From: an uncultured bacterium
GTDB lineage: Bacteria > Cyanobacteriota > Vampirovibrionia > Gastranaerophilales > Gastranaerophilaceae
NCBI GenBank assembly: GCA_902774905.1
Contig: CACYKF010000011.1
Location: forward strand, 1 to 45,062
Direction of reading: 5' to 3'
Length of the DNA stretch: 45,062 nucleotides
Part shown: piece by piece, positions 19,492-26,330 of the stretch
Position numbering within the stretch: the first letter of the stretch is position 1
Layout: each line of letters starts with the position of its first letter
Program-made: the position numbers and the translations under genes
Notes under the pieces: generated by a model
What the model saw: the letters and a program-made list of their open reading frames with translations, nothing else
Told to the model about the DNA's origin: nothing
Databases searched by the model: none

Positions 19492-20088
19492 ATGAAATTA
19501 TGTGTTTTTCAAGGGACTTTTAATCCTATTCATAATGCGCACTTGCGAGTAGCAAAATATGTGTTGAATAAATACGATTTTGACAAACTCCTGTTCATTC
19601 CTGCATACAAACCACCTCATAAAAAGTATGACGATAATATGAGTATACACAGACTTAATATGGTAAAACTTGCTATTGAAGATGAACATAATTCTAAAAT
19701 TGAAGTGTCAGATATTGAATATAAAAGAGAAGGTAAATCTTATACATATCTGACTATTTGCGAACTTTATAAAAAATACAAAATTGATAGTAAAATAAAT
19801 TTCATTATCGGAACTGATGCGTTTAAGGATATTGAAAGTTGGTATGAGACAAATAAATTAAAAGAACTTGTTAAATTTACGGTTTTTATCAGAGAAAATA
19901 ATTTTTCGTCTTTAGAGTATAATTATTTAAAAGACAAAGGTTATGATTTCATTTTTGATGAACTTTCTTTTGAAGATATTTCATCAACGGAATTGAGAGA
20001 AAAAATTAAAAACGGACAAAATATTGACGGTTTTATAAATAACAGTGTAAAGGAATATATTGCAAAAAATGAATTATATAAAACTTAG
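19492..20088 (+). CDS. nadD: Nicotinate-nucleotide adenylyltransferase
   Basis: Adenylates nicotinate mononucleotide in NAD synthesis. G-T-F-N-P-I-H-N-A-H (8-17) is the nucleotidyltransferase (T/H)-x-G-H motif variant of NadD, and I-S-S-T-E-L-R near the end is the second ATP-binding motif. 198 residues is normal. The gene overlaps yqeK, the usual nadD-yqeK pairing in Firmicutes and relatives. There is no good ribosome site; a TAATAT lies a few bases before the ATG. Confidence 0.93.
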   Translation: MKLCVFQGTFNPIHNAHLRVAKYVLNKYDFDKLLFIPAYKPPHKKYDDNMSIHRLNMVKLAIEDEHNSKIEVSDIEYKREGKSYTYLTICELYKKYKIDSKINFIIGTDAFKDIESWYETNKLKELVKFTVFIRENNFSSLEYNYLKDKGYDFIFDELSFEDISSTELREKIKNGQNIDGFINNSVKEYIAKNELYKT

Positions 20089-20665
20089 TTTGGAAGAAAC
20101 AAACAAATGGCTGAAAGAAAATCTTAACGAAAAAAGATATCAACATTCACTTGGTACGGCGGAATGTGCAAAAGAACTTGCAAAACATTTTGGGCAAAAC
20201 GAAGAAAAAGCCTATATTGCAGGACTTTTACATGACTGCGCAAAATGTTTTAGTGATGAAAAGTTACTTGAAATTATAGACAAATATCTTGATGATGTCG
20301 ATTCTGACGAACGCTCAAACAAAAAAACACTTCATGCTCCGGGCAGTTATTACATAGCAAAAACAGTTTTTGGTCTTGAAGATGCAGAAATGCTTTCAGC
20401 AATCAGATGGCATACTTTGGGCAAAATGGATATGACTGATTTTGAAAAAATAATTTTTCTTGCCGATAAAATTGAACTTCGCACAAGAAGCGAAGACTAC
20501 AGAAAAAAAATTACAAAAGATTTATATAGTGAAAATGGTTTAAATAAAGCCATTTTGGAATGTTACAAAGAAACTATAAAAAGTCTTGTTGACAGAGATT
20601 TAAAAATTTGTCCACTGACGATTGAAATTTATAATAATCTTCAAAAATCAATAAATGTTAATTAA
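20060..20665 (+). CDS. yqeK: YqeK-type HD-domain diadenosine tetraphosphatase
   Basis: HD-superfamily protein; YqeK family members split Ap4A symmetrically into ADP. Metal ligands are seen in Y-Q-H-S-L-G, the H-D pair of G-L-L-H-D-C-A-K (56-63), H-A-P-G-S-Y and the later L-A-D-K-I-E. The TTG start at 20060 is chosen because AGGA ends five bases before it; an ATG at 20069 (three codons in) is 14 bases from that site. It overlaps the end of nadD by 29 bases and is translationally linked to it. Confidence 0.88.
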   Translation: MQKMNYIKLSLEETNKWLKENLNEKRYQHSLGTAECAKELAKHFGQNEEKAYIAGLLHDCAKCFSDEKLLEIIDKYLDDVDSDERSNKKTLHAPGSYYIAKTVFGLEDAEMLSAIRWHTLGKMDMTDFEKIIFLADKIELRTRSEDYRKKITKDLYSENGLNKAILECYKETIKSLVDRDLKICPLTIEIYNNLQKSINVN

Positions 20666-20732: not shown

Positions 20733-22829
20733 ATGAAATTAATCGAAATACGAAATAACTTAATCAAACTGTCATACGAAGAAAACGAAAGACCTACATT
20801 AGGTCAGTTTATTGCACTAACAGGAGTTGAAAAATCCTATGTTGCGCAATATGTAAACCTTAAAGCCGATAATATAAATAATTTTGCGGTTGCAAAACTT
20901 ATGTTTTCTTTCAATGCAGACGGAGTAGTCAGTGAATATGACGGTTCAGCCCCAAGTATCAATAGCAATATTGTTGAATTACCTGCAAATGAACTTCTTG
21001 ATTTGCTGCCTGTTGATACAGCACTAAAAATCGGTCAAATTTCAGGTTGTAATGATGAATTAAATGTTGATATTTCTATTTTTGAACATAATTTTACCGT
21101 ATTTTGTGAAACAGATTATGAAAAAACAACTGTTATTTCAAACTGCGTAAGACAACTGTTCAGAATGAAAGAAAAAAGTGTAATTCTTGATTGTGACGAC
21201 CTTTTTGAAGAATATCCGAGAATTACATTAAGTAAAGACTTTAAACTACCGCTCAACTCCGGATTTATTGATTTTATATTTGAACACGATTTAAAAAATG
21301 TTGATGCGGCAACAAAAGCCGTTATACAGGATATTTTTTATGCAGTTCAGCAGTATATCAAAACTCTTGATGATGAATTTTTGCCGATAGAAAGTTTTAT
21401 AGATGTTGTTACGGCACAGTATAAAGAAACACAAATGCCTGAACTTGCCCTGCTGAAAAACAAACTTTTAAAATACAAAGATGCAGGGATTTTTGCAAAC
21501 GAACCTGATGAATACAAGCAACTTGAACAAAAACTTAAAGAAAGAAACTGTATTGTAATCAATATAAAAGAAGCAAACGGTGATTTGCAAAGAGAAATTA
21601 TAAATTATATTCACAAAATAATTGAAACTTTTGATAAGTATGTATATTATTTTGTACCGCTGACAGATGATAATTCGGATAAAAAACTTGTAAAACGACT
21701 TATTAACCACAGCCATGTATTCACGACATTTTTTGCAAGTCATTTGTATAAATATGCATCAGAATTAAAATCTCACGCACAGAATATATTATTCTTTGCC
21801 CCACAAACTATGCAAAACGATTTTGCGGCATACAATACATTTTTAAATAAACTAAATCCGTCAGAAGGAATTATTTACGGAAATCTTACACAAGGAATCC
21901 CGCTTATTATAACCCTTGAAGATTTAGAACTTGATTTGACAAAAGATGATGTGTTTGGTGACAGACAGAGATTTGTTCCTGCAATAGAAGAAGACCTTTT
22001 ATCAAGTGATGATATTTATGCAATAAACAATTTGCAGGAAGCACCTACTCCTGCCCCTGTTCAGGAACTTCCGACTCAGGAAGCACTTGAAATACAGGAA
22101 CAAGAGAATTATTTAGATGAGATTTCAAATGAAGATATAGAAGAATTTGACTCCGATGAAGCAAAACAAGTACTTGAAGAACAAAAACCGGAAAATATTT
22201 CTCATGACGAAATAACTTCACCAGCAATTGAAGAAACAGAAACAGAAAAAAAAGAACACCCAATTGAAAATATTTTAGCAGATGATGAGGAAGAAGACGA
22301 GATAACAGAAACTTTTGAACCTGAACAAACTCCGGTTGCCGTAGTTGCAGACACAACTGAAGAAGTTTCTCAAGAGGTTACTGAAGAATCAGTTGAGGAT
22401 GAAGACGATTTGTCATTTATGGACGATTTTCATTCCGTAAATGAAGAATCCGAACAACAGGAAGAAGTTGAAGATTTTCCACAGGATGAGGATACAGCAG
22501 AACAATTAACCGAAGACGATTTGGATTTAATAGAAAATTCAGGACAAATTCAATCCGGTGAAGAAGTTGCTGATGATTTTGCTGATACAATCGAAAACGA
22601 AGAAGATGCTCCGCCTGTAGTGCCTGTTTATGATACCGAAGACGGGGACGAAATTGCAAAGGAAAATATCGGTTTTAAAGCCGGAGATAGGGTTTCTCAT
22701 CCAAGATACGGAAACGGCACCGTTGAAAAAATTATCAAATACGGCAACAAAACACTATGTTCAATAGACTTTGAAAATGTCGGCAGAAGATTGTTAGATC
22801 CATCCATTTCTGATTTTGAAAAAATTTAA
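20733..22829 (+). CDS. HerA/FtsK-like ATPase homologue with degenerate P-loop, acidic linker and C-terminal barrel
   Basis: 698 residues. Residues 95-165 follow the HerA plan: L-K-I-G-Q-I-S-G, then H-N-F-T-V-F-C-E-T-D-Y-E-K-T-T where Walker A should be, then a Walker B-like V-I-L-D-C-D-D-L-F-E-E-Y (HerA: D-x-H-G-E-Y). Both P-loop glycines are gone (Cys125, Glu130), while Lys131-Thr132 remain. The end of the core (G-I-I-Y-G-N-L-T-Q-G-I-P-L-I-I) resembles the HerA C-terminal strand. Residues about 415-640 are very acidic and low in complexity. The last 55 residues (F-K-A-G-D-R-V-S-H-P-R-Y-G-N-G-T-V) form a small barrel like the CarD/UvrD C-terminal domain. Likely a nucleic-acid- or polymerase-associated scaffold that does not hydrolyse ATP. 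The HerA relation is inferred by eye. Confidence 0.55.
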   Translation: MKLIEIRNNLIKLSYEENERPTLGQFIALTGVEKSYVAQYVNLKADNINNFAVAKLMFSFNADGVVSEYDGSAPSINSNIVELPANELLDLLPVDTALKIGQISGCNDELNVDISIFEHNFTVFCETDYEKTTVISNCVRQLFRMKEKSVILDCDDLFEEYPRITLSKDFKLPLNSGFIDFIFEHDLKNVDAATKAVIQDIFYAVQQYIKTLDDEFLPIESFIDVVTAQYKETQMPELALLKNKLLKYKDAGIFANEPDEYKQLEQKLKERNCIVINIKEANGDLQREIINYIHKIIETFDKYVYYFVPLTDDNSDKKLVKRLINHSHVFTTFFASHLYKYASELKSHAQNILFFAPQTMQNDFAAYNTFLNKLNPSEGIIYGNLTQGIPLIITLEDLELDLTKDDVFGDRQRFVPAIEEDLLSSDDIYAINNLQEAPTPAPVQELPTQEALEIQEQENYLDEISNEDIEEFDSDEAKQVLEEQKPENISHDEITSPAIEETETEKKEHPIENILADDEEEDEITETFEPEQTPVAVVADTTEEVSQEVTEESVEDEDDLSFMDDFHSVNEESEQQEEVEDFPQDEDTAEQLTEDDLDLIENSGQIQSGEEVADDFADTIENEEDAPPVVPVYDTEDGDEIAKENIGFKAGDRVSHPRYGNGTVEKIIKYGNKTLCSIDFENVGRRLLDPSISDFEKI

Positions 22830-25895: not shown

Positions 25896-26330
25896 ATGAG
25901 AATACAAAGAGTTGATAATACGCAATTTGGCGCATTAATAAGAATAAAAACCCCCGAAGAATTATTAGCACAGGCAAACCAAATGATAACGCACATGTCA
26001 CCTGAACAAAGAGGTTTAGCTGCGGCAGCATCAAGTTCAGGAATGAGTACTAGCGGTTCAGGTCTTATGACGCTTGGAACGGCGTCAAATACTGCAGCAA
26101 CAACTTCTGATGTTATTGCCTCCGCACATTTTTTAAAAGCAAGCGGAATTGATTCTTTTGGTATTGCCCCGAGTGCAATAGCAAAATCCGCCCCATATAT
26201 GACCCCTGAAACAATAGTATCTTCTCAGGTGCATCCTGAAACCGCCGGAACAGTATTTTCAGGCTTAGGCGGTTGGATTCATTCACATTTTAAACTATTT
26301 AATAACAGACCGAAAAAAATCCCTTCATAG
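25896..26330 (+). CDS. Unknown 144-aa protein with N-terminal NTQFG motif
   Basis: Not recognised. Opens with M-R-I-Q-R-V-D-N-T-Q-F-G-A-L-I, containing the T-x-F-G form of the recurrent N-terminal motif. The middle is rich in Ala, Ser, Gly and Thr (S-S-S-G-M-S-T-S-G-S-G), suggesting a disordered or secreted-like linker, and the last 30 residues are basic-aromatic. No signal peptide. It is seven bases downstream of the secreted TPR gene, with AAGGTAA before the ATG, and is probably co-transcribed with it. Confidence 0.7.
   Translation: MRIQRVDNTQFGALIRIKTPEELLAQANQMITHMSPEQRGLAAAASSSGMSTSGSGLMTLGTASNTAATTSDVIASAHFLKASGIDSFGIAPSAIAKSAPYMTPETIVSSQVHPETAGTVFSGLGGWIHSHFKLFNNRPKKIPS

Follow-up and report, generated by a model that had tools for sequence, protein, structure and literature searches.

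A HerA-fold protein with a decayed nucleotide site and a UvrD-type Tudor tail is conserved in the Gastranaerophilales

Introduction

The closest described relative of the protein analysed here is HerA, a DNA translocase of the HerA-FtsK superfamily (DUF87, PF01935; Sulfolobus structure 4d2i). The two share the whole fold, with its N-terminal barrel, and the collinear VLxxDxHGE and GEAIIxG strands. However, our protein, called pseudo-HerA below, lacks the P-loop glycines of HerA and, as judged from the alignments, appears to lack its EEAH Walker B motif and RKFG...QRP segment. It also differs from HerA in its strongly acidic core and in an added linker and Tudor domain, and no NurA was found in its genome. 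HerA-type domains fused to foreign domains are likewise found in the HerA/FtsK capture proteins that belong to defence systems (DndH, BREX-related). In part of the published accounts, the HerA portion of these proteins is regarded as an active translocase, and the inactive domains are other ones (PMC10853773, PMC12839542). The defence HerA systems are mobile and patchy in their distribution, whereas pseudo-HerA is near-universal and vertically inherited.

The tail of the protein has the same fold as the Tudor domain of PcrA/UvrD (PF21196; 5dma, 7egs, 7egt), and of the four positions that contact RNA polymerase (RNAP) two are kept and two conservatively replaced, but the domain sits on a HerA fold here and on an SF1 helicase there. 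The PcrA Tudor recognises the motif [VIL]DxxTGE[VIL][VILT] in its partners, RpoB and UvrB among them (PMC8318588), and mutation of PcrA H681, W684, K712 and L714 abolishes RNAP binding (PMC5397179). The RNAP-interaction domain of CarD/Mfd (PF02559) is also a small Tudor-like barrel, but our tail stays under its Pfam cut-off, and the structural match is lower than that to UvrD (Z 8.1 vs 10.2).

A literature search for inactive or pseudo HerA proteins or degenerate Walker motifs, with most subscription journals outside its scope, gave no relevant paper. We found no earlier description of a HerA-fold pseudoenzyme, or of the arrangement of HerA, acidic tether and UvrD Tudor. Pseudo-kinases and other dead ATPases often become essential regulators. 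The present protein is a candidate HerA-fold pseudoenzyme that is near-universal in an order of bacteria common in animal guts, and its family shows a graded series of P-loop decay together with a clear domain capture from UvrD.

Results and Discussion

The gene and its domains

The window is the whole stretch of DNA analysed, 45,062 nucleotides from a Gastranaerophilales genome (class Vampirovibrionia). The open reading frame at 20733-22829 (+) was confirmed, with 698 amino acids and an ATG start, and its features are collected in Table 1. The motifs quoted in the initial annotation are all present, i.e., EHNFTVFCETDYEKTT (residues 118-133), VILDCDDLFEEY (residues 150-161), GIIYG (residues 379-383) and GDRVSHPRYGNGTV (residues 650-663). 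That the protein is a pseudo-HerA whose tail is a Tudor domain of the UvrD type we regard as almost certain.

Table 1. Features of the pseudo-HerA gene and of the two genes upstream of it, in window coordinates
Feature	Positions	Strand	Evidence
Pseudo-HerA/Tudor gene, 698 aa	20733..22829	+	ORF, orthologues, dN/dS
N-terminal beta-barrel (HAS-barrel-like), residues 1-90	20733..21002	+	AF2 strands; VIA alignment to HerA 4d2i
RecA-like HerA core, residues ~91-417, catalytically decayed	21003..21983	+	hhalign, PDB profile match, AF2, Foldseek, VIA
Decayed Walker A, C125-E-T-D-Y-E-K-T132 replacing G-x-x-G-x-G-K-S	21105..21128	+	Alignments; 103-orthologue positional table
Counterpart of HerA strand VLxxDxHGEY (KSVILDCDDLFEE)	21174..21212	+	Alignment; Asp153 invariant
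Walker B strand without acidic EEAH motif (FDKYVYYFVPLTDDNSD)	21630..21680	+	HerA alignment; orthologue table
Final core strand GIIYG, counterpart of HerA GEAIIxGK	21867..21881	+	Alignment; Gly383 invariant
Acidic low-conservation linker, residues 418-646	21984..22670	+	Composition; dN/dS 0.33-0.37
C-terminal PcrA/UvrD-type Tudor domain, residues 647-698	22671..22826	+	Pfam PF21196, PDB, VIA
nadD, first gene of the conserved upstream run	19492..20088	+	Pfam CTP_transf_like; conserved order
yqeK-type HD hydrolase, directly upstream of pseudo-HerA	20060..20665	+	Pfam HD; conserved order

The core has the fold of HerA

The AlphaFold2 (AF2) monomer model of residues 1-428 (pLDDT 87.7, pTM 0.85) has the HerA fold, with an N-terminal barrel and a RecA core. 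When the model was submitted to Foldseek, the top matches were all HerA structures, and VIA aligned it with Sulfolobus HerA 4d2i over 382 residues (Z 25.1, 4.0 Å). Because this alignment spans model residues 1-405 and starts at residue 1, the N-terminal barrel belongs to the HerA match. The family profile (alignment A1, 28 orthologues) was compared with every PDB chain, and the sole significant match was again 4d2i (E 1.5e-7), in two collinear segments, one with the P-loop and the VLxxDxHGEY region and the other with the C-terminal GEAIIxGK strand. By hhalign, A1 matched 20 canonical HerA-type proteins of the class over 403 columns (E 9.9e-10), and a column-shuffled HerA control gave E 0.5-0.7. 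A chance likeness to HerA was thus ruled out by the shuffle control, the PDB profile match and the VIA fold match. The initial annotation had compared the order of motifs with HerA/FtsK ATPases; the homology to HerA was upheld by the A1 profile, hhalign, Foldseek and VIA, with HerA ranking nearer than FtsK, and the fold search by Foldseek and VIA gave HerA rather than an unrelated fold.

The window protein alone did not reach the DUF87 cut-off in a Pfam scan, which gave SepF-like noise only, and a phmmer search of the PDB with the single N-terminal domain found no match. Among the 28 orthologues, 13 matched DUF87 (best 2.3e-9), and in a whole-genome search the curated cut-off of 23.2 bits was passed by the proteins of G050 (40.8), G038 (37.5), G052 (34.2) and G057 (28). 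The HerA homology is therefore visible only with the family profile or with divergent orthologues. Invariant structural positions in A1 are Asp153, Lys171, Pro173 and Gly383. The core carries a net charge of roughly -5 per 100 aa, as compared with -0.2 to -2.0 in the canonical HerAs of the class.

Decay of the nucleotide site

In the alignment to Sulfolobus HerA, Cys125, Asp128 and Glu130 stand in place of the three P-loop glycines, and Lys131 and Thr132, the GK[ST] residues, are still present. The earlier description of a Walker A destroyed by Cys and Glu at glycine positions is accurate, and Asp128 adds a third replacement to it. GxxxxGK[ST] was found at the P-loop in none of 103 distinct orthologues, among which the residues of the loop vary freely; N, D, Q, E and H predominate at position 130, and only 49 of the orthologues have Lys131. 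The Walker B site reads FVPLTDDNSD in place of xEEAH in the sequence alignment, so that the catalytic Glu motif is missing, and the RKFG...SQRP arginine-finger/sensor segment is missing from the aligned segment, a comparison made by sequence alignment and not by residue-level superposition. Judging from the sequences, ATP hydrolysis has very probably been lost, and we strongly infer that the protein is a pseudo-ATPase. The decayed site together with the acidic core suggests a protein that deals with neither ATP nor DNA in the manner of HerA.

The acidic linker and the Tudor tail

The linker (residues ~418-647, about 230 residues) contains 37% D+E and has a net charge of -80, in agreement with the acidic region noticed at the outset. 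Its length ranges from 102 to 601 residues, and it is acidic in all 58 orthologues measured (27-42% D/E), with net charges of -26 to -165. In L251, one of the diverged homologues described below, it is proline-rich rather than strongly acidic.

The isolated tail matched PF21196 with 26.3 bits (cut-off 23.9), and all 42 tails matched this family. In the full-length scan the score was 21 bits, and this was the only Pfam domain seen in the single sequence. The PDB match of the tail was the UvrD1 Tudor (E 1.4e-5). The model of the tail (pLDDT 92) was superimposed by VIA on UvrD in complex with the lobe of E. coli RNAP (7egs, Z 10.2), PcrA (5dma, Z 9.2), UvrD1 (Z 9.1) and the UvrB-bound UvrD of T. 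thermophilus (7egt, Z 8.6), with CarD below these UvrD-type structures. The CarD/TRCF RID family PF02559 gave 18.8 bits on the tail and did not reach its cut-off of 23. Of the UvrD/CarD-like tail proposed from the sequence, the UvrD/PcrA Tudor therefore stands, and CarD is a secondary likeness.

The tail is the most conserved part of the protein. The motif GRRLLDP is shared by all of 88 tails with the same length, although its invariance is partly by construction because these tails were chosen by a pattern containing GRRLLDP; a listing made without the pattern agrees. The counterparts of PcrA H681, W684, K712 and L714 are His, Tyr, Arg and Leu, two kept and two conservatively replaced, and the Tyr, Arg and Leu are invariant in the same 88 tails.

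Distribution and diverged homologues

The source genome is 99.8% complete and has a single copy of the gene. Matches were obtained in all of the 59 nearest genomes, and 58 of these matches include the core. In the class-wide sample, pseudo-HerA is present in 96 of the 97 genomes that belong to this family and in one further genome of the order, and the orthologues recorded under named taxa come from rumen and gut Candidatus Gastranaerophilales. The dN/dS values against close relatives were 0.02-0.10 for the core, 0.33-0.37 for the linker and 0.02-0.17 for the tail, and these low values indicate a functional gene, not debris. No relative was found in the phage collection. Contigs titled Fusobacterium sp. 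CAG:439 (L174) and Muribaculaceae (L130) carry the Gastranaerophilales nadD-yqeK-pseudo-HerA locus, and they are probably mislabelled bins.

The A1 profile had no match outside the order in the class-wide search. Confinement to one order was overturned, however, by a search with the tail only, which revealed very diverged homologues in three more families of the class (f9, f14 and f15), where they form a second Tudor protein in addition to UvrD. Taken together, four of these six deep homologues match A1 over 261 columns with E 1e-12. The cores of the other two, L251 and L252, were not significant against A1 by hhalign (E 0.26), and their assignment rests on synteny, the tail and the whole-protein pairwise match. 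Directly against HerA, the deep homologues gave no match (E 0.086). rarA adjoins five of the six, and maf and ileS are nearby in four. Their P-loops read GTCVAGKQ (L252), GNALGVKR (L251), GDSLEAKH (L250) and GPNFLLKY (L253), and none is intact. The decay is thus graded in degree from GTCVAGKQ through GNALGVKR and GDSLEAKH to CETDYEKT, and the partial P-loops of L251 and L252 (family f9) are possibly relics of an active ancestor.

Three further families (f8, f11 and f12) have a full-length canonical HerA, and no second Tudor protein was found in them. Canonical HerA and the second Tudor protein are therefore complementary in this sample, which is suggestive of a replacement but is not proof of it. 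In the window genome, no protein reached the canonical HerA cut-off, and NurA was not found by a search that was positive in the controls Synechococcus, Sulfolobus and others. Three members of the order (L218-L220; G328, G330 and G197) have a canonical HerA-type protein of 588-594 aa in addition to pseudo-HerA, and this sporadic protein is perhaps a defence gene.

Origin of the tail and of the core

The UvrD of the window genome likewise ends in a Tudor tail. In the order's own UvrD, the counterpart of L714 is usually Ala or another residue (GKKAMDA; L198, L199-L216), and in the remaining families of the class G[KR][KR]LLDP is retained by most UvrD-type tails, e.g., as GKRLLDP in L217. The GRRLLDP of pseudo-HerA resembles these out-of-order tails more than the order's own UvrD, and the tail scores place it nearer to the single outgroup UvrD compared (137 vs 80-101). 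This likeness suggests that the tail was captured from a UvrD of the ancestral type. Among the canonical HerAs of the class, whose matches to the core are weak, no single protein is distinguished as its parent.

A possible role in excision repair

The RpoB of the window genome (L190, a short frame of 1108 aa) has no PcrA-type TGE hairpin motif. None is found either in the stretch after GRYKLNKKL, which we take to be the hairpin site in Bacillus RpoB. The UvrB of the same genome contains IDQISGEII, a relaxed form of the motif with Ser for Thr, in a segment that looks equivalent. Coupling to transcription, one of the two roles first envisaged for the protein, is not borne out with an RpoB that has no PcrA-binding hairpin, and together with the relaxed copy in UvrB this would weaken the transcription idea and favour a role in repair.

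It is rather likely that the tail binds a partner of the UvrD type. UvrB may be this partner, as its relaxed motif would suggest, though we lean slightly against being so specific, and a scaffold role in repair is proposed more tentatively still. The best model as a whole, plausible if not quite probable, is that of a HerA scaffold which works without nucleotide and docks on the partners of UvrD, with UvrB in first place. The HerA part would no longer pump DNA and would act as a scaffold, possibly an oligomeric one, and the Tudor tail would dock the protein on carriers of the helicase-interaction motif, with UvrB as the best candidate in the window genome. The protein could then have a housekeeping function as an accessory to excision repair or as its regulator, and could share partners with UvrD or compete for them. 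Points against this model are the Ser in the UvrB motif, the Tudor tail that UvrD of the window genome has as well, and the gene neighbourhoods described below. If the model is true, the lineage may have rebuilt excision repair, or the coupling of repair to transcription, around a non-moving motor. A longer scenario, which we consider unlikely, is that a dead HerA took the UvrD tail at a time when the UvrD of Gastranaerophilales still had its key residue, before GKRLLDP became GKKAMDA. As a scaffold free of nucleotide, it would now occupy UvrD's dock on UvrB or on further partners and take the place of the HerA-NurA pathway that is missing from the lineage.

Other readings were weighed against this docking scaffold. 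An ATP-free HerA-like ring could stay on DNA as a static clamp, with the Tudor tail tethering RNAP or the repair machinery. The HerA fold forms rings in solved structures, and UvrD-RNAP and CarD-RNAP complexes are among the structural matches of the Tudor, but the strongly negative charge of the core, far from the values of the canonical HerAs, disfavours DNA binding and RpoB is without the interaction hairpin, which leaves the clamp improbable. The linker could also be a nucleic-acid mimic in a regulator of RNAP, the Tudor binding the polymerase and the HerA fold being an anchor only. The acidity of the linker throughout the orthologues measured and the match of the tail to RNAP-bound UvrD and CarD speak for this, but we doubt it strongly, because the linker evolves fastest while the core is nearly frozen, the linker of L251 is not strongly acidic, and the PcrA-type hairpin is again missing from RpoB. 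Survival of ATPase activity through a non-canonical nucleotide site is very improbable, even though Lys131 and Thr132 remain in the window protein and L252 keeps GTCVAGKQ; just 49 of the 103 orthologues have the lysine, unrelated residues fill the glycine positions, and the Walker B acids appear to be absent. An anti-phage function like that of HerA-SIR2, HerA-DUF4297 or DndH is hardly credible either. HerA subunits of defence complexes are among the closest solved structures, but PADLOC gave no match, and the gene is present in single copy, near-universal in the family and under strong purifying selection, in a fixed nadD-yqeK neighbourhood without a nuclease, SIR2 or DUF4297 partner.

Gene neighbourhood

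The neighbourhoods of the gene (nadD-yqeK; yifB or an orphan; rarA-maf-ileS in the deep homologues) have no direct link to repair. Nearly all complete loci of the family have the genes in the order nadD-yqeK-pseudo-HerA, and this order would fit a factor tied to NadD and YqeK, acting in NAD or nucleotide signalling and not in DNA repair. In other families of the order, however, neither nadD nor yqeK lies within the flanks examined around pseudo-HerA, and the deep homologues adjoin rarA, maf and ileS, so that we give such a factor little credence. In these other families, the gene often follows an orphan of 153 aa and is found near yifB/comM, or it is found near ldpA. The orphan lies directly upstream on the same strand in families f2-f5 (L051:2962-3420 and nine other genomes of the order) and has no Pfam or NCBIfam match; as an obligate partner it was ruled out by its absence from the family of the window. 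In family f6, an LdpA-like iron-sulphur protein is encoded divergently from pseudo-HerA (L041:3861-4757 and L050:3449-4318). LdpA is a cyanobacterial clock-associated family, and the hosts in f6 are non-photosynthetic. In the window itself, an ORF of 144 aa without a Pfam match (25896-26330) adjoins a TPR gene and is conserved in close relatives.
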